Below, one piece after another: positions 21,101 through 46,897 of a stretch of DNA of 46,897 bases (within the stretch, counting starts at the first letter, position 1; every line of letters starts with the position of its first letter). This stretch comes from a virus, in IMG/VR virus record IMGVR_UViG_3300025141_014521, positions 1 to 46,897 of that record. One strand, given 5' to 3'. Position numbers and translations under genes: made by a program. A model generated the notes under the pieces. The model ran no database searches and had not been told where the DNA came from. It saw only the letters and a program-made list of their open reading frames with translations.

Positions 21101-21723
21101 TATATCCTGATGTTTCAATTATTGTTACAAATTATAATTATGGAAAGTATTTGGCACGATGTTTAAGGAGTTGTTTATCACAAAAAAATGTTAATGTTGA
21201 AGTTATTATAATTGATGATGTTAGTACTGACGATAGTGATGATATAATTCAAGCATTTTTAGATGATTCACGTGTAAGATATTATAAAAATAAAGAAAAT
21301 GTTGGTGTTTCGATGTCATCTAATGTAGGATTAAAAAAATCCCGGGGTCAATTTTTTGTAAGAGTTGATGCAGATGATTTTATACATGAAGAAATGTGTC
21401 ATTATTTAAAGCTTTATCTTGAATTAAATAAAGATGTATTTTGTGTTTCATGTGATTATGTTTTAGTATCTGAAACAGAGGAAAAAATAGAAAGAAAATA
21501 TGCTGGTAAAGATAATATTTCGTGCGGTATAATGTATCGTAGAGATTTATTATTGAGTCTTGGTGGTTATAATGATAAAATGCGACATAAAGAAGAAGAA
21601 GAATTACGTAAAAGATTAGATTCATATTATAAAATTCATCATTCAGGGATGCCATTTTATCGATATAGGATGCATAAAAATAATAAAACAAAAAGTCCTG
21701 AATATTTTAAAACGGAGATATAA
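21097..21723 (+). CDS. GT2 glycosyltransferase
   Basis: This compact 208-residue family 2 glycosyltransferase has VSIIVTNYNYGKYLARCLRS (6-25) as the first strand and helix. IIIDDVSTDDS (37-47) binds the nucleotide, and VDADD (90-94) is an intact metal-binding DxD. A loop with GGY and a basic stretch follow. It is shorter than most members (250-330), lacking a C-terminal extension. It overlaps the HAD gene by ATGA and shares one base with the next start. Sugar specificity is unknown. Confidence 0.88.
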   Translation: MIYPDVSIIVTNYNYGKYLARCLRSCLSQKNVNVEVIIIDDVSTDDSDDIIQAFLDDSRVRYYKNKENVGVSMSSNVGLKKSRGQFFVRVDADDFIHEEMCHYLKLYLELNKDVFCVSCDYVLVSETEEKIERKYAGKDNISCGIMYRRDLLLSLGGYNDKMRHKEEEELRKRLDSYYKIHHSGMPFYRYRMHKNNKTKSPEYFKTEI

Positions 21724-22586
21724 TGTATAGCGTTGGTATTATAGGTAATGGTTTTGTTGGTTCATCAATAGCATCTGGTTTTTCATTATGTACTGATGTA
21801 AAAATTTTTGATATTGATCCAAGAAAATCGACACATAATCTTTTGGAGGTTGTTGATTGTGACTTTGTTTTTGTTTCAGTCCCTACACCAATGCGGAATA
21901 TTAGGGGTGGAAATATTGATTTATCAATAATGGATGCCACATTTAAGCAAATTTCTGAAGTGAACAAGAGAGATGATAATGTTTTTATTATTAAATCAAC
22001 AGTTATTCCAGGAAGTGTAGAAAAATATGTTAATGCTTATGAAAATTTAAATATTATACACTCCCCAGAATTTCTGACAGAAAGGGTTGCAAGACTTGAT
22101 TTTATTAATGCATCAAGAATAATATTGGGTGGTGATAAAGAATTAACTGAGAAAGTTGAAAAATTATTTAGGATTCGTTTTCCACATACAAAAATAATAC
22201 AAACAGATGCGACAACTGCACAGTTTATAAAATATATGGCAAATACGTTTTTTGCAACCAAGGTTTCATTTATGAATGAAATGAAACAGGCATCAGATAG
22301 TTTAGGTGTGAATTGGGATGATACAATGGAAGGTTTTATGTCTGACGGTAGAATAGGCAATTCACATGTACAAGTTCCAGGACACGATGGAAATATGGGT
22401 TTTGGCGGTAAATGTTTTCCAAAAGATTTAAATGCATTTATCGGTTTGTTTAATAGTATAGGTATTAAACCAACTGTTATGAAAGCTGCATGGAGAAAAA
22501 ATCTTGAGGTTAGGGAAGATTATGATTGGAAAGACATACAAGGTGCTGTGTCAAAAATTAAAAAAATAAGGAGTAAATATGATTGA
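21723..22586 (+). CDS. UDP-glucose/GDP-mannose dehydrogenase-type enzyme, copy 1
   Basis: This 287-residue NAD-dependent enzyme would oxidise the C6 alcohol of a nucleotide sugar to a uronic acid. GIIGNGFVG (5-13) is the Rossmann motif, VPTPM is at 53-57, SPEFLTE at 114-120, and GGKCFPKDLNA (228-238) holds catalytic Cys231 and a lysine. Lys170 and Asn174 also fit. The C-terminal nucleotide-sugar-binding domain of usual 390-450-residue enzymes is missing. It is followed by a second copy overlapping by 8 bases, so the two may form a heteromer. Confidence 0.82.
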   Translation: MYSVGIIGNGFVGSSIASGFSLCTDVKIFDIDPRKSTHNLLEVVDCDFVFVSVPTPMRNIRGGNIDLSIMDATFKQISEVNKRDDNVFIIKSTVIPGSVEKYVNAYENLNIIHSPEFLTERVARLDFINASRIILGGDKELTEKVEKLFRIRFPHTKIIQTDATTAQFIKYMANTFFATKVSFMNEMKQASDSLGVNWDDTMEGFMSDGRIGNSHVQVPGHDGNMGFGGKCFPKDLNAFIGLFNSIGIKPTVMKAAWRKNLEVREDYDWKDIQGAVSKIKKIRSKYD

Positions 22587-23439
22587 CAACGTTGGGATAA
22601 TAGGGCAAGGATTTGTTGGTAGTGCTTTAAGAGAAGGTTTTGGTATTGCATATAATATTGAAACATATGATAAATTTTTAAAAGAAAAATCAACTGTTAC
22701 AAATTTAAATATTTTATGTAAAAAATGTGAATTTATTTTTGTATGTGTACCTACACCAATGAGACGAGATGGGTCATGTGACTTAAACATTGTTAATAAT
22801 ATAGTTAAAGAAATAAATGAATATGATTATGGTAATACACTTATTATAAAATCAACAGTCCCACCAGGTACAGTACAACGATTAAATGAAGAAACAAGTA
22901 AAAATTTATCAATTGTTTTTAATCCTGAATTTTTGACTGAAGCAAATGCTATTAATGATTTTAAAAATCAAAATCGTATTATTATTGGTGGTCCTCGACC
23001 TGCAACATCTAGGGTTAAAAGAATGTATCAAAAAGCATTTCCTAATGTTCCAACAATTAAAACAAGTTCTACAATTGCTGAAATGGTGAAATATGTTACA
23101 AATACGTTTCTTGCAACAAAGGTTTCATTTGCAAATGAGATTTTTCAAATTTGTGATAAATTTGAAATTGATTATGATAAAGTGATTGAATATGCAAGAT
23201 ATGATAAAAGATTAGGGCAATCACATTGGGCAGTGCCAGGTCCTATGCCGGCAACTGATGGAACATTTAAATATGGTTTTTCTGGATCTTGTTTTCCAAA
23301 GGATTTAAATGCACTTATTCATGTTGCAAAAGATTTAGGTTTAAATCCTATAATGCTTCTTGCTACATGGCATAAAAATTTGGAAGTTAGACCGGAAAAA
23401 GATTGGGAACAATTAAAAGGCCGAGCAATTAGCGATTAA
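22579..23439 (+). CDS. UDP-glucose/GDP-mannose dehydrogenase-type enzyme, copy 2
   Basis: This 286-residue paralogue of the preceding gene has GIIGQGFVG (6-14), VPTPM (57-61), NPEFLTE (115-121), Lys171 and Asn175, and SGSCFPKDLNALI (235-247) with catalytic Cys238. Like copy 1 it stops before the C-terminal domain. The two proteins differ at many positions, so this is an old duplication or two separate acquisitions rather than a recent copy. It is the last gene of the block before a 79-base gap. A uronic acid made here could be the substrate of the AsnB-like amidotransferase upstream. Confidence 0.82.
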   Translation: MIDNVGIIGQGFVGSALREGFGIAYNIETYDKFLKEKSTVTNLNILCKKCEFIFVCVPTPMRRDGSCDLNIVNNIVKEINEYDYGNTLIIKSTVPPGTVQRLNEETSKNLSIVFNPEFLTEANAINDFKNQNRIIIGGPRPATSRVKRMYQKAFPNVPTIKTSSTIAEMVKYVTNTFLATKVSFANEIFQICDKFEIDYDKVIEYARYDKRLGQSHWAVPGPMPATDGTFKYGFSGSCFPKDLNALIHVAKDLGLNPIMLLATWHKNLEVRPEKDWEQLKGRAISD

Positions 23440-30627: not shown

Positions 30628-31116
30628 ATGCCAGTAAAACCAGATGAAACAGGACCCATCGAAGGTGGGGTAAAGTTTAAGTCAATAGGAAATGCTACAG
30701 AACTTCATGAAACTTTAAAAGATCCAACAAAGGCAATTGGTATTAAAACACCACTTGAATTTGGCGTAGGTATTGATGGTGTATTTAAAATGCATAGAAC
30801 ACTTGTTGATCAAATTAAAGATAATTTTCGTAATTTATTATTAACCAATCATGGTGAACACCTTGGTAAGTTTGATTATGGGGCAAATCTTCGACCATTA
30901 TTATATCAACAGAGTGATGATGTTTCTGATGAGATGGTAAATAGAATTAGAATTGCGGTACAAAAATGGATGCCTTATATAAGTTTAGAAACACTTGAGG
31001 TTGCAGAAGAAGACTATGCTGGAAAATCATTTGCCCAAGTTTTAAGAGTAGCAATTACATATTCATTACCGGAATTAACACCGGCAGATCAAAGATTATC
31101 TATATTATTGGTATAA
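30628..31116 (+). CDS. 25: gp25-like baseplate wedge protein
   Basis: This 162-residue protein is of the T4 gp25/GPW family, a component joining baseplate wedges and nucleating the sheath. The typical core is LLLTNHGEHLGKFDYGANLR (70-89), equivalent to the family's TxxGERxxxPxFG stretch, followed by RIRIAVQKWMPYI (106-118) and a final strand pair. The N-terminal extension of about 45 residues is slightly longer than in T4 (132 residues in total). GGAG precedes the start. It is the first gene after the late box. Confidence 0.85.
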   Translation: MPVKPDETGPIEGGVKFKSIGNATELHETLKDPTKAIGIKTPLEFGVGIDGVFKMHRTLVDQIKDNFRNLLLTNHGEHLGKFDYGANLRPLLYQQSDDVSDEMVNRIRIAVQKWMPYISLETLEVAEEDYAGKSFAQVLRVAITYSLPELTPADQRLSILLV

Positions 31117-31128
31117 TAAGGTTTTAGT

Positions 31129-32988
31129 ATGACAATATCAAAACAAGCAATTAAAACAAAATTAGTAAAACAACGCTCATATCTTAATAAGGATTTTGAT
31201 TCTTTTAGGGCAGATCTTTTATCATATGCAAGGCAGTTTTTTTCTGATAAAATTGAAGATTTTAGTGAAGGATCTGTTGGTGGTTTATTTATAGATTTGG
31301 CAGCTTACATTGGTGATGTTCTTGCATTTTATTTGGATCATCAATTTGGGGAGCTTGATCTTGAACGTGCAATTGAATTTGATAATGTTGAACGTTTAAT
31401 TAGGGATTCTGGCGTGGAAATTATTGGAGCATCTCCGGCAGTTGTTGATGTTACTTTTTATATTGAAGTTCCCGCAGAACGTATTGAACATACCCAATAT
31501 AAACCACAGGCGACTGCTTTACCAATCATAGGTGCAAATACTCTTTTGACATCTGATGATGGTATAACATTTCAGTTACTTGATGATATTAATTTTGCTG
31601 ATGAGGATGAAGATGGTAAATTAATTGCAAATAATGGAAGTCCACCTGTTGGTGATGTTACCTCAGATGGAAGGCCGGAGACATTTATTTTATCAAGAGT
31701 TGCAATGTGTATATCAGGATTCAGGGCAAAAGAAACATTCTCAATTCCAGATATTTCAAAACCATTTAGGGTTATAACGTTGGCAAATCAAAATGTATCA
31801 GATATAATATCAGTTGTAGATAGTATGGGTAATATTTATTATGAAGTAGAATCATTAGCTCAAGATACCGTATTTAAGGCCATTGTTAACACAGGAATCG
31901 ATGAAAAACAAGTTCCTAGTAATTTAAGGGTGATTCCTACACCACATAGGTTTACGAAAAAAACTACTTTAGGTGATCGTATGACGTCAATACAGTTTGG
32001 GTCAGGTGATGGCCAAACACTAGATGATGATATTGTACCAGATCCTGCAGAATTAGCGCTACCAATGTATGGTAAAACAACGTTTACTAGGTTTACCTTG
32101 GATCCAAATAATTTATTGCGATCAAGAACATTAGGCGTAGCACCACGTGATACAGTTATAACTGTTGATTATAGGTATGGTGGCGGATTAAATAATAATG
32201 TTGGTTCTAAGGCCATTAATACTATTAGTGAATTAGCTATTAATTTTCCAGGAGGAATTTCAGTTGCATTACAAACATCAATTAGGAATTCACTTGATGT
32301 TACAAATGTATATCCTGCATCAGGTGCCGAAGATCCTCCTTCTTTAAATATACTTCGTGCTGAGGCTTTTTCAGCACATAATTCACAGGCAAGGATTGTA
32401 ACAAAACAAGATTTATTGGCAAGAATTCATACATTACCAACCCAATTTGGTCGTGTATTTAGGGCAGGAATGGCTCCTAATCCGAATAACCCACTTGCTG
32501 TCCAGGTTTTTATAATTAGTAGAAATAAAGATAGTAAATTAATAATATCACCTGATATGTTGAAAGAAAATCTTTCAACATATTTGAATGAATTTAGATT
32601 AATATCGTCGGGTTATGATATTTTAGACGCAAGTATTATTAATCTTGGTATAAATTATTCAATCGTTGTTGATCCCACTGCAAATAAGGCAGTTATTTTA
32701 CAAAATGTAAATGTTGCAATTATGCAAAATTTCAGAATTGAAAATTACCATATTCATCAACCAATTTTAATTTCCGAGGTTATGAATTTAATATTTAATG
32801 TTCAAGGTGTTATTTCTATTATGGATTTACAATTTATAAATAAGACAAATAGTATTAAAAATAAATTATATAGTTCATATGAATATAACGTTAAATTAAA
32901 TACCCGAAGAGGTTTACTTATACCACCACCAGGTGGAATTTTTGAAATAAGATATCCTACTGTTGATATTGTAGGTTCTGCTGAGTAG
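31129..32988 (+). CDS. 6: gp6-like baseplate wedge protein (baseplate J family)
   Basis: This 619-residue protein resembles T4 gp6 and baseplate J proteins, which form the ring of the baseplate around the hub. The N-terminus has YLNKDFDSFRADLLSYARQF (18-37) and FSEGSVGGLFIDLAAYIGDV (45-64), the conserved membrane-free helix pair of the family. VTVDYRYGGG-type sequence follows in the middle, and the C-terminal part has the MQNFRIENYHIHQPILISEV segment typical of baseplate J. It follows gp25 as in many myophages. Confidence 0.8.
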   Translation: MTISKQAIKTKLVKQRSYLNKDFDSFRADLLSYARQFFSDKIEDFSEGSVGGLFIDLAAYIGDVLAFYLDHQFGELDLERAIEFDNVERLIRDSGVEIIGASPAVVDVTFYIEVPAERIEHTQYKPQATALPIIGANTLLTSDDGITFQLLDDINFADEDEDGKLIANNGSPPVGDVTSDGRPETFILSRVAMCISGFRAKETFSIPDISKPFRVITLANQNVSDIISVVDSMGNIYYEVESLAQDTVFKAIVNTGIDEKQVPSNLRVIPTPHRFTKKTTLGDRMTSIQFGSGDGQTLDDDIVPDPAELALPMYGKTTFTRFTLDPNNLLRSRTLGVAPRDTVITVDYRYGGGLNNNVGSKAINTISELAINFPGGISVALQTSIRNSLDVTNVYPASGAEDPPSLNILRAEAFSAHNSQARIVTKQDLLARIHTLPTQFGRVFRAGMAPNPNNPLAVQVFIISRNKDSKLIISPDMLKENLSTYLNEFRLISSGYDILDASIINLGINYSIVVDPTANKAVILQNVNVAIMQNFRIENYHIHQPILISEVMNLIFNVQGVISIMDLQFINKTNSIKNKLYSSYEYNVKLNTRRGLLIPPPGGIFEIRYPTVDIVGSAE

Positions 32989-34523: not shown

Positions 34524-37500
34524 ATGTCTTCCATTACAAAAGGAATTGGTTCTAACAATGTAGGCTTTTTTTCACCTTCTATGTCTAAAGAAGTCATAGA
34601 AGGTAGGGAAGTCATTGAGAACAAAAGTTCTGAAGATTTATTACCTGATAGTAATATTTTAAGTACTGCGTCATATAAATATGCCGGCCCTTTACAAGGT
34701 ATTAAATCAACACAACAAGTAAATACAGATTATTCAAGATTTGAAAATCATACATTTTTTAGTTCTGCCGAAGTAAATGTAAATGTTGCATTTGATAAGA
34801 TTATTAATAAATTCCCATTTGATGGTAGAAAAAAAGATATTGAGGCATTTCTTGATGATTTTACAGGATTTGAGCGATGGGTATTTGATAATTTTCCTAA
34901 AGGCAGAGGTTATTTATTTTTTTCAGGCTCAAATGATGCAACAGTAGATCACGGTACTTACATTAAGGTTAATGATTATAAAGGCACATCATTTCCAACA
35001 CTAACAAAAGCTAATACCGGTCGAACAGCAATAGATCCAGGCATAAATTCAATTTCATTTGAAACACATATTTTTATACCGTCACAAGCAAATGATAATC
35101 AAGTTATATGTCAAAAATTATCAGGTAGTGATCAAGCAATTACGTTAGCACTATCACAATCTTCGGTTACAACAAGTTGTTCAGTTGTTTTTGGGGTAGC
35201 ATATAGTGGTTCATTTTTATCTGCTTCGGCAGATATTGATAAAGGTTCATTTCAACATTTGGTGGCGACCTTAAAGCGAGGCGGTGCAGGTGATAAATTA
35301 CAAATTTTTATAGATGATAGAATGCAGGCTGAATCAAATACCAAAACAGCATTTGGTGAGATTAATATGTTGGCGGTTCCATTCATTATAGGTTCGGGAT
35401 CATCACATAACGGTATAGGTGGCCCATCAGGTTCAACTGAAACTGGGCCGTTTATCCCTAAACAAACATTTTCCGGTGCGTTGGATGAATTTCGTGTATT
35501 TCATGATACAAGGTCTATTGTTGATCAAGAATTATATGGTGAAAAAACGATTTTTGCAAGTGATAAATTAAAATTATATTTTAAATTTAATGAGCCATCT
35601 GGCTCTTTAGGTAATGTAACAAATCTTGCACTTGATAGTTCAGGAAATGGGTTACATAGTACAATATCAAATTTTGAACGAACGCTTAGGGTTACAGGGT
35701 CAGATGCACCTATTGATGGTGGTCTAGATGTACCAATGAAATATGAATTAGACGATTTTAATCCCATTCTATTTCCAGGATATAATAATGTAATTAATTT
35801 AAATACTAGGTTAATGGTAACAGCATCATATTATGACAAGGTTAATCCTAACCTTATTACGAGGTTGGTTCCAGAACATTACTTAGTAGAAGGTAGAGTA
35901 CAGGATAATTTTGATGATTATGAAGGAACATTTAAAACTGAACTAACAGGATCAGGTCTTCCGGGTACTGCAAAAACCGGCTCAGGTCAATTAATGTTAT
36001 CATTATTATATGTATGGGCTAAACACTTTGATGAATTAAAAATTGTTATTGATGCATTTAGCACAATAAAACATACAAATTATGAAAATGTTGATGGAAT
36101 TCCTGATCCTTTACTTTTAAGTCTATTTAATAAGTATGGGTTTGTTTTCCCCAATTTATATTCAGGTGCAACGCTAGAACAATATATAGATGGTGATAAT
36201 TTATCACATTTGGTAGGCAGAACAAAAAATAGTTTACAATTTATACAAAATGAAATGTGGCGAAGACTGCTTATTAATTTACGAGAAATTATTAATTCAA
36301 AGGGAACAATTCATGCAATAAAGGCATTTTTTAGATCAATTGGAATTAATCCGGATAAAACCGTAAGAATACGTGAATATGGCGGCCCAACAATTCATTC
36401 AATTAAAAATTCTAGACAAAATAAAATAGAAGTTTCAACAATGTTAAACTTTTCTGGCGCGCTTGTGAATTCTTCACCAACGAATACAGATGCAAGAGGA
36501 ATAAATACAGGCATACCGTTAATAAGATCACCATTTTTATCTGGTTCTAGGATAGAAACAGGTTATCCTGAACCAAATAGTACATTTGTATTAAAAAAAC
36601 AATTTCCACCACACGGTATATCCAATAGGTCAAGTGATGGTTTATTTACATCGGGATCATTTACATATGAAGCAATTTATAAATTTCCACTTACAAGTTC
36701 AACAAAAACATATGCATTATCGCAGAGCTTGGTACGATTGTCGGTTACTGGAACAAATGAAGGTGAGCAGCAAGGGCTTGTTACAAACTTAATTGCTGAA
36801 AAGAATAAATTAACATTATTTATGCGTCCATCAAATCAATCACTTGCTCCAATTTTACGTTTAGCTTTGACAGGCGTAAATATTTATGACGGAGATAGAT
36901 GGAATGTTTCATTTGGTAGAAATAGAAATGATAGTATTGGTTCATTACAATCATCATCATATTTTTTAAGGACAGCAAAACATAGTCATGGTAAAATTAC
37001 TGATTCATATATAACTCAATCAATTTTTTCAGAAGATAGAACAAATACAAGAACCAATAACGTTTTTGAATCAATTATAGATACGTATAATAATTCGGGT
37101 AGTTTTATAATAATCGGATCTCAATCATTAAAATATTTTGGTACTTCTAAATTCTTAAATGATGTAACAAATGTCGGTAATATAGGACGAATAACCAATT
37201 TTGATGGTCAAATTGGTCATATTAGATTTTGGTCAAAAGCACTAGAACTTAATGAATGGAAGGAACATGTTAGAAATTTTAAATCATTAGGTGTAAATGA
37301 TCCACTTAATAATTTTAACTTTGTTACAGCAACGACAGGCTCATTTGAGAGATTAAGGTTAGATGTAACAACTGATCAACCGGTTACAAAATCAAATGCA
37401 ATGGGCGGAATAACATTATTTGATTTTTCACAGAATGCAATGTCAGGTGTTATTGGCTCACCATGGGATTTGGAAAACACAGGATCAAATCACAATATTC

Positions 37501-38150
37501 TTGATAAAAAACATTATCATATGTCAGGAACAGGTTTTCAGCCAAATAAACCAGTGGTTATTGCAGAAACATTTAATTATAGCCATTTATCACCATTTTT
37601 TGATGAATCACAAACGAATAATAAAGTAAGGATTAGGAGCTATATTGATGCAGAGAAAGCTTTAGAAAATAATGTGGCCGTTGCACCGTACCATAAATTA
37701 ACTTACGCTGAACGTCCCAATGATGATAATAGATTTTCAATCGATTTTTCTGCAACAAATGCATTGGATGAAGATATTATAAATATTTTTGCAACTTTAA
37801 AGTTTTTAGATAATGCTATTGGTGATCCCGTTTTACAATTCTCCCCAGATTATCCAAAATTAGAACAGTTACGAAGAATTTATTTTAATAGGTTAACAGG
37901 TAAACTTAATTTTAAAACATTTTTTGATTTCTTTAAGTGGTTTGATACTTCTTTTGGTGTTTTTATTGATATGTTAGTACCGGCTGAAACAAGATTTTTA
38001 GGTGCAAATTTTGTTATTGAGTCACATATGTTGGAGAGAAATAAATTTGAATATCGATTTCCTGATATTTATCTTGAAGAAGCCCACCGTCCACCAACCC
38101 GGGAGGATATTTTATTAAGACAACTTGTTGCAAGAATAAAGGGTTTTTAA
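34524..38150 (+). CDS. Giant baseplate/tail protein with LamG-like domain
   Basis: This 1208-residue protein has a concanavalin/LamG-like jellyroll at about residues 172-350: SISFETHIFIPSQ, then FQHLVATLKRG, LQIFIDDRMQAES and FSGALDEFRVFHDTRS are its characteristic strands. The C-terminus (FFDFFKWFDTSFGVFIDMLV) is compact and may anchor the protein. Such jellyrolls bind glycans or surfaces. Its place between the 505-residue and 1496-residue proteins suggests a peripheral baseplate or fibre-attachment protein. It is preceded by AGGTGA. Confidence 0.6.
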   Translation: MSSITKGIGSNNVGFFSPSMSKEVIEGREVIENKSSEDLLPDSNILSTASYKYAGPLQGIKSTQQVNTDYSRFENHTFFSSAEVNVNVAFDKIINKFPFDGRKKDIEAFLDDFTGFERWVFDNFPKGRGYLFFSGSNDATVDHGTYIKVNDYKGTSFPTLTKANTGRTAIDPGINSISFETHIFIPSQANDNQVICQKLSGSDQAITLALSQSSVTTSCSVVFGVAYSGSFLSASADIDKGSFQHLVATLKRGGAGDKLQIFIDDRMQAESNTKTAFGEINMLAVPFIIGSGSSHNGIGGPSGSTETGPFIPKQTFSGALDEFRVFHDTRSIVDQELYGEKTIFASDKLKLYFKFNEPSGSLGNVTNLALDSSGNGLHSTISNFERTLRVTGSDAPIDGGLDVPMKYELDDFNPILFPGYNNVINLNTRLMVTASYYDKVNPNLITRLVPEHYLVEGRVQDNFDDYEGTFKTELTGSGLPGTAKTGSGQLMLSLLYVWAKHFDELKIVIDAFSTIKHTNYENVDGIPDPLLLSLFNKYGFVFPNLYSGATLEQYIDGDNLSHLVGRTKNSLQFIQNEMWRRLLINLREIINSKGTIHAIKAFFRSIGINPDKTVRIREYGGPTIHSIKNSRQNKIEVSTMLNFSGALVNSSPTNTDARGINTGIPLIRSPFLSGSRIETGYPEPNSTFVLKKQFPPHGISNRSSDGLFTSGSFTYEAIYKFPLTSSTKTYALSQSLVRLSVTGTNEGEQQGLVTNLIAEKNKLTLFMRPSNQSLAPILRLALTGVNIYDGDRWNVSFGRNRNDSIGSLQSSSYFLRTAKHSHGKITDSYITQSIFSEDRTNTRTNNVFESIIDTYNNSGSFIIIGSQSLKYFGTSKFLNDVTNVGNIGRITNFDGQIGHIRFWSKALELNEWKEHVRNFKSLGVNDPLNNFNFVTATTGSFERLRLDVTTDQPVTKSNAMGGITLFDFSQNAMSGVIGSPWDLENTGSNHNILDKKHYHMSGTGFQPNKPVVIAETFNYSHLSPFFDESQTNNKVRIRSYIDAEKALENNVAVAPYHKLTYAERPNDDNRFSIDFSATNALDEDIINIFATLKFLDNAIGDPVLQFSPDYPKLEQLRRIYFNRLTGKLNFKTFFDFFKWFDTSFGVFIDMLVPAETRFLGANFVIESHMLERNKFEYRFPDIYLEEAHRPPTREDILLRQLVARIKGF

Positions 38151-38153
38151 AAT

Positions 38154-41100
38154 ATGACAAATAATAACAATAAATATACAGGTGGAAAAATAAAGCCATT
38201 TAAAGATAAAATAACCATGATTATTAGTGGTGCCCCTATCGAATTCAACTTCACGTTGGGCGGTGATGCCACCAAGGTGGTGATCAGGATCGTCAACGAT
38301 GAAGGGGCTGTGATTCGTACGATTCAGACCACAGGGGATAAAGGTTCTAATAAGGTTGTCTGGGACGGTAAAACAGACGATGGTGAAACTGCCACTGTCG
38401 GAAAGTTTCATTTTTATACGTTTTTCGTCTTCAAGGCCGTCAATGAAGACGGTGAAAACGTCAGTTGGAAGGTAGCCGGAAAATCAAGGTTCAACTCAAT
38501 GACGTACTTGGGTTCTTTGGCAATATTGAATACCGAACCATCTATAGGCAGAGGTAGGGGTAGCACTCATAATTCACATCATAAAGATTACACTACAGGA
38601 AGTTTAAGCGGTATAAATACAATTGAAATTGATTCATTTCGTCAAGGCGTACATGCATTAAGCCGCGGAAAAGCAAGGCAAATAATGCCAACATTTAGTG
38701 TATCTACAATAGAAATTAGTTCAGGCACAATTCCTATTGGGACACCAAGGATTTTTGATGATAGTGTAATTTATGAAGATAAAACCGTAATGACACCACA
38801 TGAACTTGCACTTCATCAAATTAAAGCAGACCCCAATATTGATTATGATGTAATATATCCAAAAGATACTAGTGATGCAGAAATTGATCCTGCTGTGTTA
38901 GAGCCATTTACTATTCGTGATGAAGTAACATTTACAGTGGCTCATGATGCAATAACTCGTAAAATAGCAGCCCATTTTCAAGATGGAAATGAAGATTCAT
39001 TTGGCGGTTCTAATTTTATTGAACAAAAAAAGCCAAAGCATGGTTTTCCTTATTTTAAAAGTGGTACATTTAAAGATACCAGCATTATAAATGCGATAAA
39101 CCCTTTTATTGATGCTTCTGATAAATATGGTCCATCAGGCAAAGATAGTAAAGGTGTACCATATGGCACCGCAAGTATACGCCTACCTGGTTTTATATCA
39201 GATAAACAAGAATATATAAGGCCATTTGATGAATCAATTATTAATTCATTCATTAGTAGTTCATTTGGTCATTTATCTGGTTCCATCGTTCATGTATTGG
39301 AAAATAACCATAGTAGTTCATATAACAGGTCAGGATCACACATATTTGATGGGAACCTAAATGAATCAGAAACCATTTCTGCAACAGCAGGTAGTGAATA
39401 TTTGTCGGCAATTCAAATTGGCACAGATTCACGTGCATTTGGGGATATGCAACCATATAATATTAGGGGATTTTTACAATTACGTGATTCATTAATTAAT
39501 ACGTACCCACCATCAGGTTTTTTTAGTGATCAAAATTATGATAAGACATTATCTGCATCATTATATTTACCAAACCAATATCGAAGGCCGTTTATTTATA
39601 ATGATGATAATACAATTATTTTTAACAGTAGTAGTATACCATCTCAGGCCCCTTTTGCAAAGGTCTCGGGTTCAAATTATGATGCCCAACCAGGCCCTCA
39701 ACATGCTGGAGGTCAAGCAATAAATGTAGGTAGAAATTTCCAAGTCGGTATTGGTCTTATATCTGGTTCAGGTGCTGGTAATGCAGGATTACAAGGAAAA
39801 CAAAATGTATTGGTTGCAACCGGTATAACTTCATCACTTTCACAAAGCCTAAGTGGTTCTGAGCGTTCACGTTATATGAGACATGGTTTAACAAATACTA
39901 GGCAGATTTCATATCCAATTATAGGTTCAAATTATTATGAAACAAGAAATTTATCTGGTTCAATTTATGCATTAGGCACAGTGCGAAAAGGAATTGTAGA
40001 CAAACAATATGTGTATAATGCTACGCCTCAATGGTTTTCAACCAATGCCTCTAGTTCTATAAGCCCATTTAATGAAAGTATTTCTTATTTTGAAACAAGA
40101 AATGAACGTAATCGTATGACTGGATCACTTAATTTTTATTCTGGTACGATTATAGGAAAGTCCCCACTTCCAGGTTTTTCTCAAATGTTAAGGGATAAAA
40201 CAAAAATTGTGATAGATATGAATCCAATTGAAACAACGGGGATTTATTATTCAACTGGAACAGCTTTTGTGACAGCAAGTTTACCGTCTGGTTCTGTTGG
40301 TTCTTCATATGCTTATTTTAATTGGGATTTAAGAAAGTGGGAAATGCATGGTGTTAATAGGCCTATCGAAAAACGTTCAAATGGTGATTTTTCAGATTTA
40401 AGTACAGGATTTGATGAAGCCACAGTAATGCCATATACCGGTGCTTGTGTTGCGTTTACACCTGGTGGTGTATATGCAGCCAATGCCGCGACTCCTGAGC
40501 TTCATCAAGCCGTAGGACTACCATTTTCAAATTATGGGTTTCCATGTGCAAGTCAATATGATGCAACAGGTTCACAAATATTGAAAATGTCAGATTATAT
40601 TAATGCGCCATTTTTATTGGAAAAGATTGTTTGGGAATTTTCTGCATCATTTCCCCCAACATATCGTGGCGACAGTTCAAAACCCGCGGCTGCACCACCT
40701 AGTAAATGTACGTTTTTTATATTAAACCAATATAAATATGGCCTACCACAAGGTGCTCCATTAATTGAATTTGATCATTATAGTGGCTCAGTAACTGTTT
40801 CAAGAACGGTACAATATGGTGTTAATCGGGTTAAAGACCTTGTTACATATGGTAATATAACAAGGGTTAATACGGCGGTATATGATACAGGTCGTACCAG
40901 GCCTTCTTATACCGCAGGCGAAAGTTCTACGAAATTTGATTTTGATGATTTAAATATCAATGTTACCGGAAGTACAACCGGTTTTCAATACAGTGGTGGA
41001 AGCTATAAGGGTAATCAACCGGATGCTATCACAGGATCATGGAGGTTGCAATTCCCCTGTAGGCAATCAACACTTAGAAAATCTGGAATTTCAGAATTAT

Positions 41101-42644
41101 CTATGTTTGACAGGGATCTCAACAATGACACCGGTGATTATGGCACCATAATACAAATGGTAAATAAATTAGGCACAAGGAATCTTATGGGATTTCCAAA
41201 CGGTAGGAGTTATATTAGTCCTATCCCGGCCGCGCCGGTATCAGGTGTATGGAGCCATAGAGGCAGCGAGTATCATATACCAGCAACGTCAAGTCTTCCA
41301 TCACCTTATTTATTATTACCAACAGATAATTTGGTATTTGGATTTCAAGGATTTTTTAATAGTCCGTTTTATAATATATCACCCCATGGTGACGATAATT
41401 TCCGTGGTGAGGCAGCCTTATTAACACAACAAGTTAATTTGGCTGAAGGGGCAAGTAGGATAATTTTTTATGGATCGTATATAAGGGAAGGTAAAGAATA
41501 TCATCCATCACTTAACCAACCCCTAACAACTAATGCAATACATGAAGTTATTGGGAATGAACCAGTTTTAGATCAATTTCATGTTGAATATTCAAGTCAA
41601 TATTATGGTTCATATCTAACGCGCATAGTTACAGGTTCAATGAATGTAATTTCGGGTACGGGTAGGGGTGATATACCTGATGCAAGACAAATAATGGGCC
41701 GATCCACTAGCGGTACATTAGGAACAACAGGCTCATTTTTGTTAGGTGTACGAATGTCAACAACCAGTGAAAGATATTTTGATTCTATGGTTGGTAATCC
41801 TGGTGCATATCATAATATAAATGGCAAAAAATTACTTGATACTGGGAGCAGTATAGCAGAATTTATGAGTGGTTCAATTATGTTGGGTCATTATGGTACT
41901 GGATATGATGAGTTTACTGATTCAGATTGGCCATATGGATTTCCATATGAATCAAGATATGCCTCAATTGGCAGAAATATTGATACTAGGATGAAAACAA
42001 AATTTCTAAATGATCAAGATGTAAGGGTTCAACTAACACTTATCGGTGGTTCAGGTATATACGTAAAAGATGGTGGTTCTTCACAACTCATGGGCGTTGC
42101 TCCTGAGCTTAAAAAACCATCTATAGATTTATTAATGAAATATTATTTTGGTACAGGACCTGTAAGTGGATCATTACCAGACATCAGAAGATTAAATTTC
42201 GAAGGTGCCAACCTGGGAACCCCCATTTTAAGGGGATTTAAATATGGGCTTGTTAATGCCGTTCGTCAAACAACGTCGATGGTTTTCAGGCATGATAGAT
42301 ATGGTCAATTCAGGGATATGCTTGAACAACGACAAGATACAAGATTTTTACTTGAACGGGAAAGCAAGAATGATGTTAGTCCCCCTACCTTACCACGTAA
42401 ACAAATATCAGTTACTGATGGGGTAGTAACATGTAAATTTGTTGATAGATTAAACCATGATGAAAGAGTTGATCCTATGACAACAAATAGTTCAAATTTA
42501 GATCTATATGCAACATCATCATTACCATTTTTTGAACATAGATATTTTAATGCAGATGATAGTTTAATATCTATTAGGAATCGTAACCCAATTGAAGGTA
42601 CCGCAGAAGAAACATTGGGTGGTCATACGGTAACTTTTGATTAA
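38154..42644 (+). CDS. Giant virion protein with N-terminal FlgD-like Ig domain
   Basis: This 1496-residue protein begins with a FlgD-type Ig-like fold at about residues 28-112. Its marks are RIVNDEGAVIRTIQTTG (45-61), VVWDGKTDDGE (68-78) and VGKFHFYTFF (82-91), the V-W-D-G-x-D-D-x-G-x-x-V-x-x-G-x-Y pattern of that family. The remainder is a strand-rich, G/S/T/Y-rich protein without a recognised domain. The DNA for the Ig domain (about 38225-38520) is far richer in G+C than its surroundings and uses different codons (GCC, ACC, AAG, GTG, ATC), which suggests a recent domain insertion. Probably baseplate or fibre. Confidence 0.6.
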   Translation: MTNNNNKYTGGKIKPFKDKITMIISGAPIEFNFTLGGDATKVVIRIVNDEGAVIRTIQTTGDKGSNKVVWDGKTDDGETATVGKFHFYTFFVFKAVNEDGENVSWKVAGKSRFNSMTYLGSLAILNTEPSIGRGRGSTHNSHHKDYTTGSLSGINTIEIDSFRQGVHALSRGKARQIMPTFSVSTIEISSGTIPIGTPRIFDDSVIYEDKTVMTPHELALHQIKADPNIDYDVIYPKDTSDAEIDPAVLEPFTIRDEVTFTVAHDAITRKIAAHFQDGNEDSFGGSNFIEQKKPKHGFPYFKSGTFKDTSIINAINPFIDASDKYGPSGKDSKGVPYGTASIRLPGFISDKQEYIRPFDESIINSFISSSFGHLSGSIVHVLENNHSSSYNRSGSHIFDGNLNESETISATAGSEYLSAIQIGTDSRAFGDMQPYNIRGFLQLRDSLINTYPPSGFFSDQNYDKTLSASLYLPNQYRRPFIYNDDNTIIFNSSSIPSQAPFAKVSGSNYDAQPGPQHAGGQAINVGRNFQVGIGLISGSGAGNAGLQGKQNVLVATGITSSLSQSLSGSERSRYMRHGLTNTRQISYPIIGSNYYETRNLSGSIYALGTVRKGIVDKQYVYNATPQWFSTNASSSISPFNESISYFETRNERNRMTGSLNFYSGTIIGKSPLPGFSQMLRDKTKIVIDMNPIETTGIYYSTGTAFVTASLPSGSVGSSYAYFNWDLRKWEMHGVNRPIEKRSNGDFSDLSTGFDEATVMPYTGACVAFTPGGVYAANAATPELHQAVGLPFSNYGFPCASQYDATGSQILKMSDYINAPFLLEKIVWEFSASFPPTYRGDSSKPAAAPPSKCTFFILNQYKYGLPQGAPLIEFDHYSGSVTVSRTVQYGVNRVKDLVTYGNITRVNTAVYDTGRTRPSYTAGESSTKFDFDDLNINVTGSTTGFQYSGGSYKGNQPDAITGSWRLQFPCRQSTLRKSGISELSMFDRDLNNDTGDYGTIIQMVNKLGTRNLMGFPNGRSYISPIPAAPVSGVWSHRGSEYHIPATSSLPSPYLLLPTDNLVFGFQGFFNSPFYNISPHGDDNFRGEAALLTQQVNLAEGASRIIFYGSYIREGKEYHPSLNQPLTTNAIHEVIGNEPVLDQFHVEYSSQYYGSYLTRIVTGSMNVISGTGRGDIPDARQIMGRSTSGTLGTTGSFLLGVRMSTTSERYFDSMVGNPGAYHNINGKKLLDTGSSIAEFMSGSIMLGHYGTGYDEFTDSDWPYGFPYESRYASIGRNIDTRMKTKFLNDQDVRVQLTLIGGSGIYVKDGGSSQLMGVAPELKKPSIDLLMKYYFGTGPVSGSLPDIRRLNFEGANLGTPILRGFKYGLVNAVRQTTSMVFRHDRYGQFRDMLEQRQDTRFLLERESKNDVSPPTLPRKQISVTDGVVTCKFVDRLNHDERVDPMTTNSSNLDLYATSSLPFFEHRYFNADDSLISIRNRNPIEGTAEETLGGHTVTFD
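38225..38520 (+). other. GC-rich patch encoding the FlgD-like domain
   Basis: By hand count the five 60-base lines from 38221 to 38520 hold about 46% G+C (31, 30, 28, 23 and 27 of 60). The line before (38161) has about 22% and the line at 38581 about 27%. Codons ending in C or G dominate inside and are rare outside. The borders coincide with the Ig-like domain, so the patch probably came from another genome by recombination. Confidence 0.7.
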
Positions 42645-42655
42645 CAGGTATATGT

Positions 42656-45600
42656 ATGACAATTACAAACAAAGAAGCAAAAAAACAAGGACTTTTAAAA
42701 CAGTTAGATAATAACGATGAAGTTAATCTTATTGTTTCAGTACCAGATTTTCAAATTGGATCGTCTGCATCTACAAAAGGTACCTTAATTCTTAAAGGTA
42801 TTGCTGAAGAAATTGGTAAGACAGGATTTGGTAAATTATATGTAAAGAGTACTGATGGTAAGTTATATTATAAAAATCCTGCACATAATAGTGGTGATGA
42901 AGTTGATATAACAGGCGGTTCAATTACTGTTACAGAGGCTGACGGTAGTCCAAGTGTATCTGATGTTACAACAATAAAATTTTCAAACGGTACAGTAACC
43001 GATAATAGCGATGGAACAGTTACAATTGTAAATAGTGCAGGCACAGCCACGAATATTGCTGCGGATAATATTACTACTGGTGATGCAGCTGTAGCACTTG
43101 AAACATCTTCCGGGGATGTAACAATTGATTCACAGGCTGGTGCTGTTTCTATTGATGGTCATACGGGCGTTACACTTGCTTCTTCTAATTCTGGTGATAT
43201 TACTTTAGATTCAGTTGCAGATATCAATATTGACGCAGCTGGTTCAAATATTAACTTCAAAGAGGGAGGAACAGTATTTGCTTCTCTCAATGAGGATGGC
43301 GATGATGCTTATTTAAATTTTGGTACCACTGCTGGATCTGGTGGTTATGGTATTCAAGATGATGCCGGCACTATGAAATTTAAGAATAGTGGTGGATCAT
43401 GGACAGCTTTTGCCGGTGGTTCCTTAAATGACCTTTCTGATGTTAGCTATTCCAGTGGTGATTTAACAATTACTTCTCTCGATGCGATTATCGCTTCAGG
43501 TGATCTTATGTTAGATGTTGGTGGAGATATCATTTTAGATGCTGATGGTGCAGATATTTCTTTAAAGGATGCTGGTACCCAATTTTTAAAATTTACCAAT
43601 AATAGCGGTGATTGTGAAATTTATAATGGTGTCGCTGATAAAGATATTATCTTTAAAGATCTTGGTGGTAATGAAATCTGTAGGATTGATGGATCCGCTG
43701 AATCACTTTTGATAGCAAGTGGAAAAAAGATTCAATTTGCTGACACTCTGGAATATATCACTAGTGATGGTACTGATCTTACAATTGGATCTGGTGCAGA
43801 CATAATTGTTGATGCCACGGCATCAATAGAATTAAATGCCGATGGTGGAAACATTGTTTTCAAAGATGGATCCCAACAGGCCCTTAATCTTGATATGAAT
43901 GATACGGCTGGCGACGCAGTTTTCAAGGATGCAGGCGATACAGAAATTTTTAGGATTGATGGAAGTGCTGATTCCCTTCTTATGGCAACCAGCAAAAAGA
44001 TTGAATTTCGTGATGCTGGTTTATATATTAATTCTTCCACTGATGGACAATTAGATATTGATGCAGATACAACCATTGAAATAACGGCTCCTACCATTAA
44101 ATTTGTATCATCTACAACAGTAGTACAAGAAACAAATACATTTCAAATTGGTACTGGCGCTGATACAGATATCACTTTTACTTTTAACGCCAATTCTAAT
44201 GATGGCGTAATTACTTGGATGGAGGATGAAGAACAGTTTAAGTTTTCTGATAATATCCTTATAGTCGGTTCGCACAAGCTTTATTTGGGTGATACGGGTA
44301 CATATGTGCATCAGAGTTCAAATGCCGCTCTTGATATTGTTTCTGATGGGACCGTTACAGTTGATGCTACTGGTGATATTGCATTAAGTGCTGACGGTGG
44401 TAATGTTACAATGGATGACGGTACAACAACTATTTTTGATTTTGATGTTGATAATGTTGTTTTAAAAATGATGGATGATGCAGACACAGGGGATTATTTT
44501 TCAATTGCTGTTGCTGCAAACGGTGCTACAACAATTACCACAGTTGATGATGATGCAGCCGCAGCAAATCTTACATTCACAATTGACGGTAGTTGGGATG
44601 CTAATATAACAGGTGCCATTACAATTGATTCATCAGCAGGGACAATTGGCATTGGTGTTGATGATGTTGATCAGAATATTAATATTGGTACACAAGGTGA
44701 GAGAACGATTTCTATTGGTACAGGAGCTTTTGCTGATGATATTAATATTGGTAATGCAACCGGTGCCACAGCACTTGATCTAGACGCAGGAACAGGCGGT
44801 GTCACAATTGATACAACCGGCGCCTTTTCAGTTGATGCTGCTGACGCTTCTAATATTACCGTTGCTTCTGGTGCTACCGATGAGAATCTTACACTTTCAG
44901 TTACTGGTGCTACAGCATCTAGCTTGATTCTTTCGTCTGCTGGTACAGGAACTGATGCTATAGATATTAATGCTACTGCCGGTGGTATTGATATTGATGC
45001 AAATGGTGCCTTTTCAGTTGATGGTGCTGCTGCTTCTAATATTACAGTAGCATCCGGCGATACCGATGAGAATCTTACACTTTCAGTGACGGGTGCCACA
45101 GCCTCTAGTTTAATTTTATCATCAGCTGGCACAGGCACAGACGCAATTGATATTAATGCTACGGCCGGAGGCATTGATATTGATGCTAACGGTGCTATAA
45201 GTATTGATTCTGCCGCTGGTTCTATTGACATCAACGTTGTTGATGGACAAACGGTTAAGATAGGTCTAAATGGTGCGGTTGAACAGGTTATTGCCCCCCA
45301 TGGAACAGCCGGTAGTGAATTATATTCAGTAATCAATACTGCGGGTACCACCGATGGTTCTGACGCCGCCGGTTCGATTCTACTGAGTGCGGTAGCAGGT
45401 GGTATTGGATTAGCTTGGGCCGATAGTAAAGATCTATGGGCTGAAGGTGGCCAATTTGTAGTTACGGCAAACCATGATACTGCCGCTGCTATTAAATTAC
45501 ATGCCGATGCAGGTTCTAGTCAAACAATTCAAATTATAAATGATGAAGGTACAACCGATGGATCCGAAGGTGCCGGAGCCATTGATATTGAGGCAACAGT

Positions 45601-46897
45601 AGGGGGAATTAGTCTTCATGCTGCTGACGACAAAGATATTTCGATAGAAGCTGGTCAGGTTGTTATAACTGCCAACCACAATACCAGCGAGTCGATTAAA
45701 CTTCATGCCGATGCAGGTGCCAATCAAACAATTCAAATTATCAACGATGCCGGTACAGCCGAGGGAGCCGAAGGTTCTGGGGCAATTGATATTGAAGCAA
45801 CTGTTGGTGGAATTAGTCTTCATGCTGCTGATGACAAAGATATTTCGATAGAAGCTGGTCAACTTGTCTTAACTGCCAATCACGATGCGGCAGATTCTAT
45901 TAAATTGCATGCCGACGCTGGCACTTCACAAACAATTCAGATTGTCAATGATGCTGGTACAACAGATGGTTCTGACGACGCAGGTGCGATTGAATTATCG
46001 GCAGCGGCAGGAGGTATTGGTTTAGCCTGGGCAGACGATAAAGATCTGTGGGCTGAAGGCGGTCAATTTGTAGTTACTGCTAATCACAACACTAGTGAGG
46101 CCATTAAATTACATGCCGATGCAGGATCTAGCCAGACAATTCAAATCTTAAATGACGAGGGAACAGCTGATGGTGCAGAAGGGTCCGGAGCAATCGATAT
46201 TGAAGCGACCGTTGGCGGTATCAGCCTTCATGCTGCTGACGACAAAGATATTGCGATTGAGGCTGGTCAGGTTATTGTTACGGCAAATCATGATACAGCT
46301 GGTGCGATTAAACTTCATGCTGATGCTGGAACGTCACAAACAATTCTTATACAAAATGATGCAGGTACAGGTACTGGCGCTGTAAATATCGCGGCAGATG
46401 CTGGTGGTGTTACCATTGATGCCGGTCTAGACATCACTCTTGATGCCGACGGTGCCGATATTTTCTTTAAAGATAGTGGTACTGAGGTTGGATCATTACA
46501 GTTAACAGGCACCACTAATATGACCCTGAGATCAAAGGGTGATTTAAGTCTTGATTCAAATACAGGTAAATGGTTATTTGAAGATGAAGGTACACATGTT
46601 TTTCAGGTAACAGGTAGTAGTGGTAATGTTACAGTTGAGATACCTACATCAGATAAAGATTTAATTTTTAAAGTTAATGATGGTGGTACTGCAACAGAGG
46701 TTATGACAATTGACGGTAGTACATCATGGGTTGGTATCCATACATCAGATCCAGAAGCATATTTGGATATTAAGAATACCGTTGATGATGGTACAACAAA
46801 TAGAACAATGCTAAGGTTACATAATTATCGATCTGATGATGCAGATGTTAATGACTTTGGGCCAATCTCTATTGATTTCGATATAGAAAATACCGAC
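42656..46897 (+). CDS. Tail fibre protein with tandem beta repeats (partial)
   Basis: An open frame runs from the ATG at 42656 (CAGGTA upstream) to the last base without a stop, giving 1414 codons so far. Short strand repeats of the type LDADGADISLKDAG and NIDAAGSNINFKEGG recur throughout and are typical of trimeric phage fibres. Two larger repeat sets lie at 44819-45190 (62 residues, two copies) and 45494-46309 (68 residues, four copies). Near the window end, SWVGIHTSDPEAYLDIKN resembles the stretch preceding S74-type intramolecular chaperones, so the end of the gene may be near. It likely binds host receptors. Confidence 0.8.
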   Translation, partial: MTITNKEAKKQGLLKQLDNNDEVNLIVSVPDFQIGSSASTKGTLILKGIAEEIGKTGFGKLYVKSTDGKLYYKNPAHNSGDEVDITGGSITVTEADGSPSVSDVTTIKFSNGTVTDNSDGTVTIVNSAGTATNIAADNITTGDAAVALETSSGDVTIDSQAGAVSIDGHTGVTLASSNSGDITLDSVADINIDAAGSNINFKEGGTVFASLNEDGDDAYLNFGTTAGSGGYGIQDDAGTMKFKNSGGSWTAFAGGSLNDLSDVSYSSGDLTITSLDAIIASGDLMLDVGGDIILDADGADISLKDAGTQFLKFTNNSGDCEIYNGVADKDIIFKDLGGNEICRIDGSAESLLIASGKKIQFADTLEYITSDGTDLTIGSGADIIVDATASIELNADGGNIVFKDGSQQALNLDMNDTAGDAVFKDAGDTEIFRIDGSADSLLMATSKKIEFRDAGLYINSSTDGQLDIDADTTIEITAPTIKFVSSTTVVQETNTFQIGTGADTDITFTFNANSNDGVITWMEDEEQFKFSDNILIVGSHKLYLGDTGTYVHQSSNAALDIVSDGTVTVDATGDIALSADGGNVTMDDGTTTIFDFDVDNVVLKMMDDADTGDYFSIAVAANGATTITTVDDDAAAANLTFTIDGSWDANITGAITIDSSAGTIGIGVDDVDQNINIGTQGERTISIGTGAFADDINIGNATGATALDLDAGTGGVTIDTTGAFSVDAADASNITVASGATDENLTLSVTGATASSLILSSAGTGTDAIDINATAGGIDIDANGAFSVDGAAASNITVASGDTDENLTLSVTGATASSLILSSAGTGTDAIDINATAGGIDIDANGAISIDSAAGSIDINVVDGQTVKIGLNGAVEQVIAPHGTAGSELYSVINTAGTTDGSDAAGSILLSAVAGGIGLAWADSKDLWAEGGQFVVTANHDTAAAIKLHADAGSSQTIQIINDEGTTDGSEGAGAIDIEATVGGISLHAADDKDISIEAGQVVITANHNTSESIKLHADAGANQTIQIINDAGTAEGAEGSGAIDIEATVGGISLHAADDKDISIEAGQLVLTANHDAADSIKLHADAGTSQTIQIVNDAGTTDGSDDAGAIELSAAAGGIGLAWADDKDLWAEGGQFVVTANHNTSEAIKLHADAGSSQTIQILNDEGTADGAEGSGAIDIEATVGGISLHAADDKDIAIEAGQVIVTANHDTAGAIKLHADAGTSQTILIQNDAGTGTGAVNIAADAGGVTIDAGLDITLDADGADIFFKDSGTEVGSLQLTGTTNMTLRSKGDLSLDSNTGKWLFEDEGTHVFQVTGSSGNVTVEIPTSDKDLIFKVNDGGTATEVMTIDGSTSWVGIHTSDPEAYLDIKNTVDDGTTNRTMLRLHNYRSDDADVNDFGPISIDFDIENTD
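44819..45190 (+). repeat. Tandem 186-base repeat, two copies, in the fibre gene
   Basis: Units at 44819-45004 and 45005-45190 each encode 62 residues starting GAFSVD and ending GGIDIDAN. The second differs at only a few residues. A partial third unit starts at 45191 (GAISID). The core contains TDENLTLSVTGATASSLILS in both copies. The repeats extend the fibre shaft and can change its length by recombination. Confidence 0.85.
45494..46309 (+). repeat. Tandem 204-base repeat, four copies, in the fibre gene
   Basis: Units of 68 residues begin KLHADAG at 45494, 45698, 45902 and 46106, and a fifth begins at 46310 before decaying. A degenerate copy precedes them (about 45298-45493). Two unit types alternate: one has GGISLHAADDKDISIEAGQ, the other GGIGLAWADDKDLWAEGGQ. 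In order they run A, B, B, A, B, counting the degenerate first copy as A. Confidence 0.85.

Follow-up and report, generated by a model that had tools for sequence, protein, structure and literature searches.

Smug et al. (2023, PMC10684548) documented contemporary domain mosaicism, including that of Ig-like domains, in the receptor-binding and baseplate proteins of phages. The T4 protein Hoc carries strings of Ig domains on the capsid (PMC10385173, citing Fraser et al. 2006). Here we describe an IMG/VR virus fragment of 46,897 bases (the window), in which a gene of a T4-like baseplate cluster encodes a single FlgD-type Ig domain near its N-terminus. We consider it quite probable that this domain was recently inserted in an N-terminal, domain-accepting site of a baseplate-region protein of an AT-rich T4-like phage.

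The Ig-domain gene and its baseplate setting

The following features of the window, all on the + strand, are used below.

30628..31116, +: gp25-like baseplate wedge protein (PHROG 43)
31129..32988, +: gp6-like baseplate wedge protein (PHROG 6 and 219; tblastn to annotated baseplate wedge proteins)
34524..38150, +: upstream LamG-containing baseplate-region protein of 1208 aa (Pfam: PF13385), 44-47% identical to relatives, used as synteny anchor
38154-42644, +: ORF of 1496 aa with the Ig domain near its N-terminus (ORF list)
38154..38210, +: native N-terminal peptide, aa 1-19, with 'IKPFKDKI' and 23% G+C, resembling the N-termini of relatives
38211..38534, +: GC-rich domain-coding segment, probably inserted, aa ~20-127, predicted FlgD-type Ig fold (maximum-likelihood GC3 segment; missing from relatives; predicted strands at aa 20-111)
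38214..38414, +: FlgD_ig match (Pfam: PF13860), aa 21-87, E 1.7e-11
38571..38636, +: native right-hand anchor ahead of the core ('NSHHKDYTTGSLSGINTIEIDS'), resembling 'YNPHSxxY..GSGSFTAQID' of L128, L156 and L048
38637..39455, +: baseplate-region protein, conserved core from 'FRQGV' to 'GTDSRAFGDM', aa 162-434 (alignment with 56 homologues)
39456..42644, +: rest of the ORF, homologous to the next gene of relatives and fused in frame (phmmer to large downstream genes, among them those of L048, L017 and L007)

The order ahead of the Ig-domain ORF is gp25-like gene, gp6-like gene, ORF 32997 and LamG gene, in a T4-like baseplate cluster. Judging by this synteny with the gp25- and gp6-like genes, the ORF product is probably part of the virion. 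Neither Pfam nor PHROGs contains a family matching the core, and a structure model of the core from 57 sequences is of low confidence (pLDDT 50) and was set aside. The core and the next large gene are joined in the window and are separate genes in the relatives. Since the ORF carries the core and runs on into a homologue of the next gene, two genes are fused here; no such fusion was found among the relatives read. The fusion may be natural or may stem from a one-base sequencing error at about 39455, which are indistinguishable from the sequence here.

Beside the baseplate genes there is also a large sugar-nucleotide/glycan block (82-26861) with epimerases, glycosyltransferases, a carbamoyltransferase and an asparagine synthase. 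The adjacent ORFs 21723-22586 and 22579-23439 both match the UDP-glucose dehydrogenase PHROG.

Identity and base composition of the domain

FlgD_ig is the only Pfam match in the 1496-aa ORF and scores 44.3 bits against a Pfam gathering score of 27, which bears out the FlgD-like Ig domain proposed in the initial annotation. Furthermore, an HMM built from four bacterial flagellar FlgDs matches with 58 bits across aa 7-86. Seven strands are predicted at aa 20-111, in a single-sequence model with a mean pLDDT of ~55 (54.6) that reaches about 67-79 over aa 31-80. The best Foldseek matches of this domain model are FlgD crystal structures (E 3e-4), while the other Foldseek matches, like those listed by VIA-align, are to Ig/FN3-like sandwiches in general; the fold class is therefore probably sound and the FlgD label comes mainly from sequence. 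Against viral models, Foldseek gave no match at E<=0.001.

The N-terminal region of FlgD (Pfam: PF03963), although detected in bacterial controls, is absent from the ORF, as is the tudor domain (Pfam: PF13861), which in FlgD is split around the Ig domain. The ORF is therefore not the hook-cap protein, and we rejected this identity. In shuffling tests, homology to FlgD had no support upstream of aa ~25 or downstream of aa 86, and a FlgD origin of the AT-rich N-terminal peptide or of the residues past the Pfam match was likewise rejected as unsupported.

The patch at 38225-38520 has 47.0% G+C compared with 30.9% for the whole window, in which sliding 296-base windows have a mean of 31.0% (sd 5.6%). 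Sliding G+C and codon plots thus agree with the roughly 300 bases of about 46% G+C reported initially. The flanks of 22-27% given at the same time hold only for the first 66 bases of the gene (38154-38219, 22.7%), since the 300 bases on each side have 29.7% (37925-38224) and 36.0% (38521-38820). The shift in base composition of the patch is synonymous. All 99-codon stretches of the window average a GC3 of 0.172 (sd 0.056), and the patch, at 0.535, has the highest value. If the protein sequence is held constant and synonymous codons are drawn at the frequencies of the window, 17.3 of its 98 codons would be expected to end in G or C; 53 do (z 10.4), a count reached in none of 200,000 simulations.

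A scan over all genes of the window placed the maximum-likelihood GC3 segment at 38232-38534 (log-odds 40.1; start support 38205-38244, end support 38507-38567). This is the only outlier segment, the runner-up having a log-odds of 9.3. The patch is not the richest in G+C: the 2 kb at 44507-46457 have 45% and rise to higher peaks. GC3 there is only 0.24, however, and the high G+C is driven by amino acids, being due to alanine- and glycine-rich repeats. This repeat protein is probably a fibre, and its codon usage is not that of foreign DNA.

At the left border the start of the composition segment (38205-38244), the Pfam start (38214) and the alignment gap at about 38211 (aa 20-21) coincide, and by these three agreeing lines the border is fixed. 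The right border is less sharp (38507-38570). As to the original observation that the borders of the patch match one Ig-like domain, on the left composition and homology give the same border.

Relatives and the probable insertion site

Relatives were fetched by profiles of the gp6-like and LamG proteins (80 loci each), and the gene after the LamG gene was readable in 88 loci, plus L088 by hand. In most relatives this gene encodes ~250-460 aa with a core from 'IDxFRQGVE' to 'GTDSIAFGG' and is followed by a separate large gene. The stretch ahead of the core has 7 to about 180 residues (median 48) and is widely divergent. Residues 1-19 of the window are found in most relatives, examples being the N-termini 'MSIKPFVDRP' of L107 and 'MAIRPFKDRF' of L101. 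Counterparts exist for these residues and for those from about aa 141 onward, but few or none for most of aa 20-140. Some residues of relatives were aligned inside the domain at aa 50-60, which we read as misplacement by the aligner because no FlgD_ig or phmmer match exists there.

Out of 57 aligned members, only the window's own has FlgD_ig, and none of the 56 homologues does. Moreover, the FlgD_ig model found no match above the cut-off in 102 whole records of relatives. The comparison with relatives lacking the domain, proposed at the outset, could thus be made with 56 of them, and the refuting situation named with it, whole-gene homologues that all have the domain at the same low G+C, did not hold. 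The nearest homologues without the domain are just 22-31% identical in the Ig-domain gene, so the exact empty site of the window's own lineage was not seen.

Two weak FlgD_ig matches in distant relatives were discarded, as they lie in bacterial-looking secreted proteins on the opposite strand and not in the virion gene. At L086 and L087, the contig ends of L085 and L061, there are bacterial-looking secreted proteins on the opposite strand, of type IX secretion style, with a C-terminal FlgD_ig-like domain. The L085 and L061 contigs also bear phage baseplate genes, and the secreted proteins are possibly host genes or the contigs chimeric.

Besides the window, two relatives have inserts of a different kind at this spot. 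One is L048 with ~110-120 aa between 'FPVR' and 'KYNPH..YVIGGGSGSFTAQIDPYRQGVS'; in L156 the same flanks are present and the insert is missing. Another insert, of ~110-125 aa, was found in L119 relative to L121. These inserts support the suggestion in the initial annotation of a swappable module, and its reading as a recent transfer of a single domain into a virion gene is supported by the foreign composition, the coinciding left border and the 56 relatives without the domain. The two inserts are much nearer in composition to the genomes that carry them (codon skew z 2.2 for the whole N-terminal stretch of L048 and -0.1 for L119), in keeping with older events. The strongest skew among the relatives' N-terminal stretches is z 3.1 compared with 10.4 for the window insert, as expected if the event in the window is unusually recent.

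The gene following the FRQGV gene in L133 (12147-14051) has two copies of the insert domain of L048, indicating that such domains move between neighbouring genes. ORFs resembling GIY-YIG homing endonucleases lie exactly between the LamG and FRQGV genes in L112 (10511-10843) and L114 (4944-5678), and the FRQGV gene of L112 is present in two tandem copies. Nuclease genes are documented at boundaries of phage genetic exchange (PMC10448857). The window has no nuclease ORF at its LamG/FRQGV gene boundary, so that homing-driven insertion is only a lead.

Origin, role and comparison with described systems

Foreign base composition together with absence in every examined relative makes this locus look like a single domain caught soon after a swap. 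In the favoured explanation, a FlgD-type Ig domain of ~100 codons would have come from a genome with a GC3 near 0.5 and entered in frame between the short native N-terminal peptide and the 'FRQGV' core, at a site which appears to take up different small domains repeatedly in related phages. Illegitimate or homing-driven recombination may have placed it there. The core would be docked in the baseplate periphery, with the Ig module projecting outward and exposed.

A close donor was not found by tblastn and blastn against phages, by tblastn against plasmids or by searches of viral and genome contigs, the viral contigs being searched with one sequence and with FlgD alignments. At E<=1, the 50,697 phage records contained no match to the domain, and the PHROGs library gave no convincing match. 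Genome contigs yielded four weak bacterial relatives of 31-40% identity, which are bacterial FlgDs and one type IX-style protein.

As to function, weak and exchangeable binding of host surfaces is the likeliest role of the Ig module, and we hold it with about even confidence; Hoc and other Ig domains found in phages suggest it by analogy (PMC10385173). Somewhat less probable, but still a serious alternative, is that the acquired domain has no part in attachment and serves just as a structural spacer or in assembly: FlgD itself is an assembly scaffold and the relatives manage without any domain there, yet the ORF has neither the N-terminal nor the tudor part of FlgD, and variable accessory Ig domains of phages are more often tied to surface binding (PMC10385173).

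A bolder version of the insertion, which we think unlikely, would make the N-terminus of this protein family a dedicated domain-capture site through which phages and bacteria trade small beta domains, perhaps with help from the homing endonucleases located at this gene boundary in relatives; the window would then show one domain taken from the flagellar hook-cap gene of a bacterium. Less likely again, and by a wide step, the domain could be an old one of the lineage whose GC-rich codons are kept by local selection for translation pausing, RNA structure or an antisense gene. In favour of this, local codon effects are found close to the 5' end of genes, which is where the domain lies, and it is overlapped by a 98-codon antisense ORF (38115-38411). 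However, this ORF extends into the preceding gene and ends at 38411, short of the end of the GC-rich segment at ~38534; moreover, there is no Rfam match, and the relatives lack the domain altogether and show no such skew in their N-terminal stretches. That assembly or binning fused part of a bacterial flgD-like gene to a phage contig is highly improbable. The contig is metagenomic and no independent contig covers the borders, the 99%-identical contig L002 ending upstream, but such a chimera needs two in-frame joins exactly at the domain edges in a 300-base piece with the 1496-codon ORF still open; the N-terminal and tudor parts of FlgD are not included, and relatives have other kinds of insert at this position.

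Taking the recent insertion as the probable explanation, its significance lies in its freshness. Domain swaps in phage particles have mostly been deduced from sequences that are old and ameliorated, whereas the DNA here still shows the borders of what appears to be the capture of a single domain, in agreement with homology. The alignment of relatives shows the place where the protein accepts inserts, which offers a concrete site for asking whether small Ig domains of the baseplate alter host attachment. None of the literature searched describes an Ig domain of the FlgD type encoded in a virion gene of a phage.

Bacterial FlgD (3osv, 3c12, 7eha) shares the Ig domain, as seen from FlgD_ig, the FlgD HMM and the best Foldseek matches, but PF03963 and PF13861 are missing here and the gene is a viral one in a baseplate cluster. 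As in T4 Hoc, Ig-like domains that are accessory and variable are joined to a conserved, presumably virion-docking part, but the locus differs in having a single FlgD-type Ig domain in the tail-baseplate cluster. A further parallel is the mosaicism described by Smug et al., as here too a small Ig-like domain in a baseplate-region protein was probably shuffled recently, and an Ig-like domain of one lineage is missing in homologues of the same gene (present in 1 of 57 members). What differs is the un-ameliorated composition, the FlgD-type domain and an acceptor family outside Pfam and PHROGs. The find is thus a clear, well-resolved and unusually fresh example of the Ig-domain mosaicism already described.
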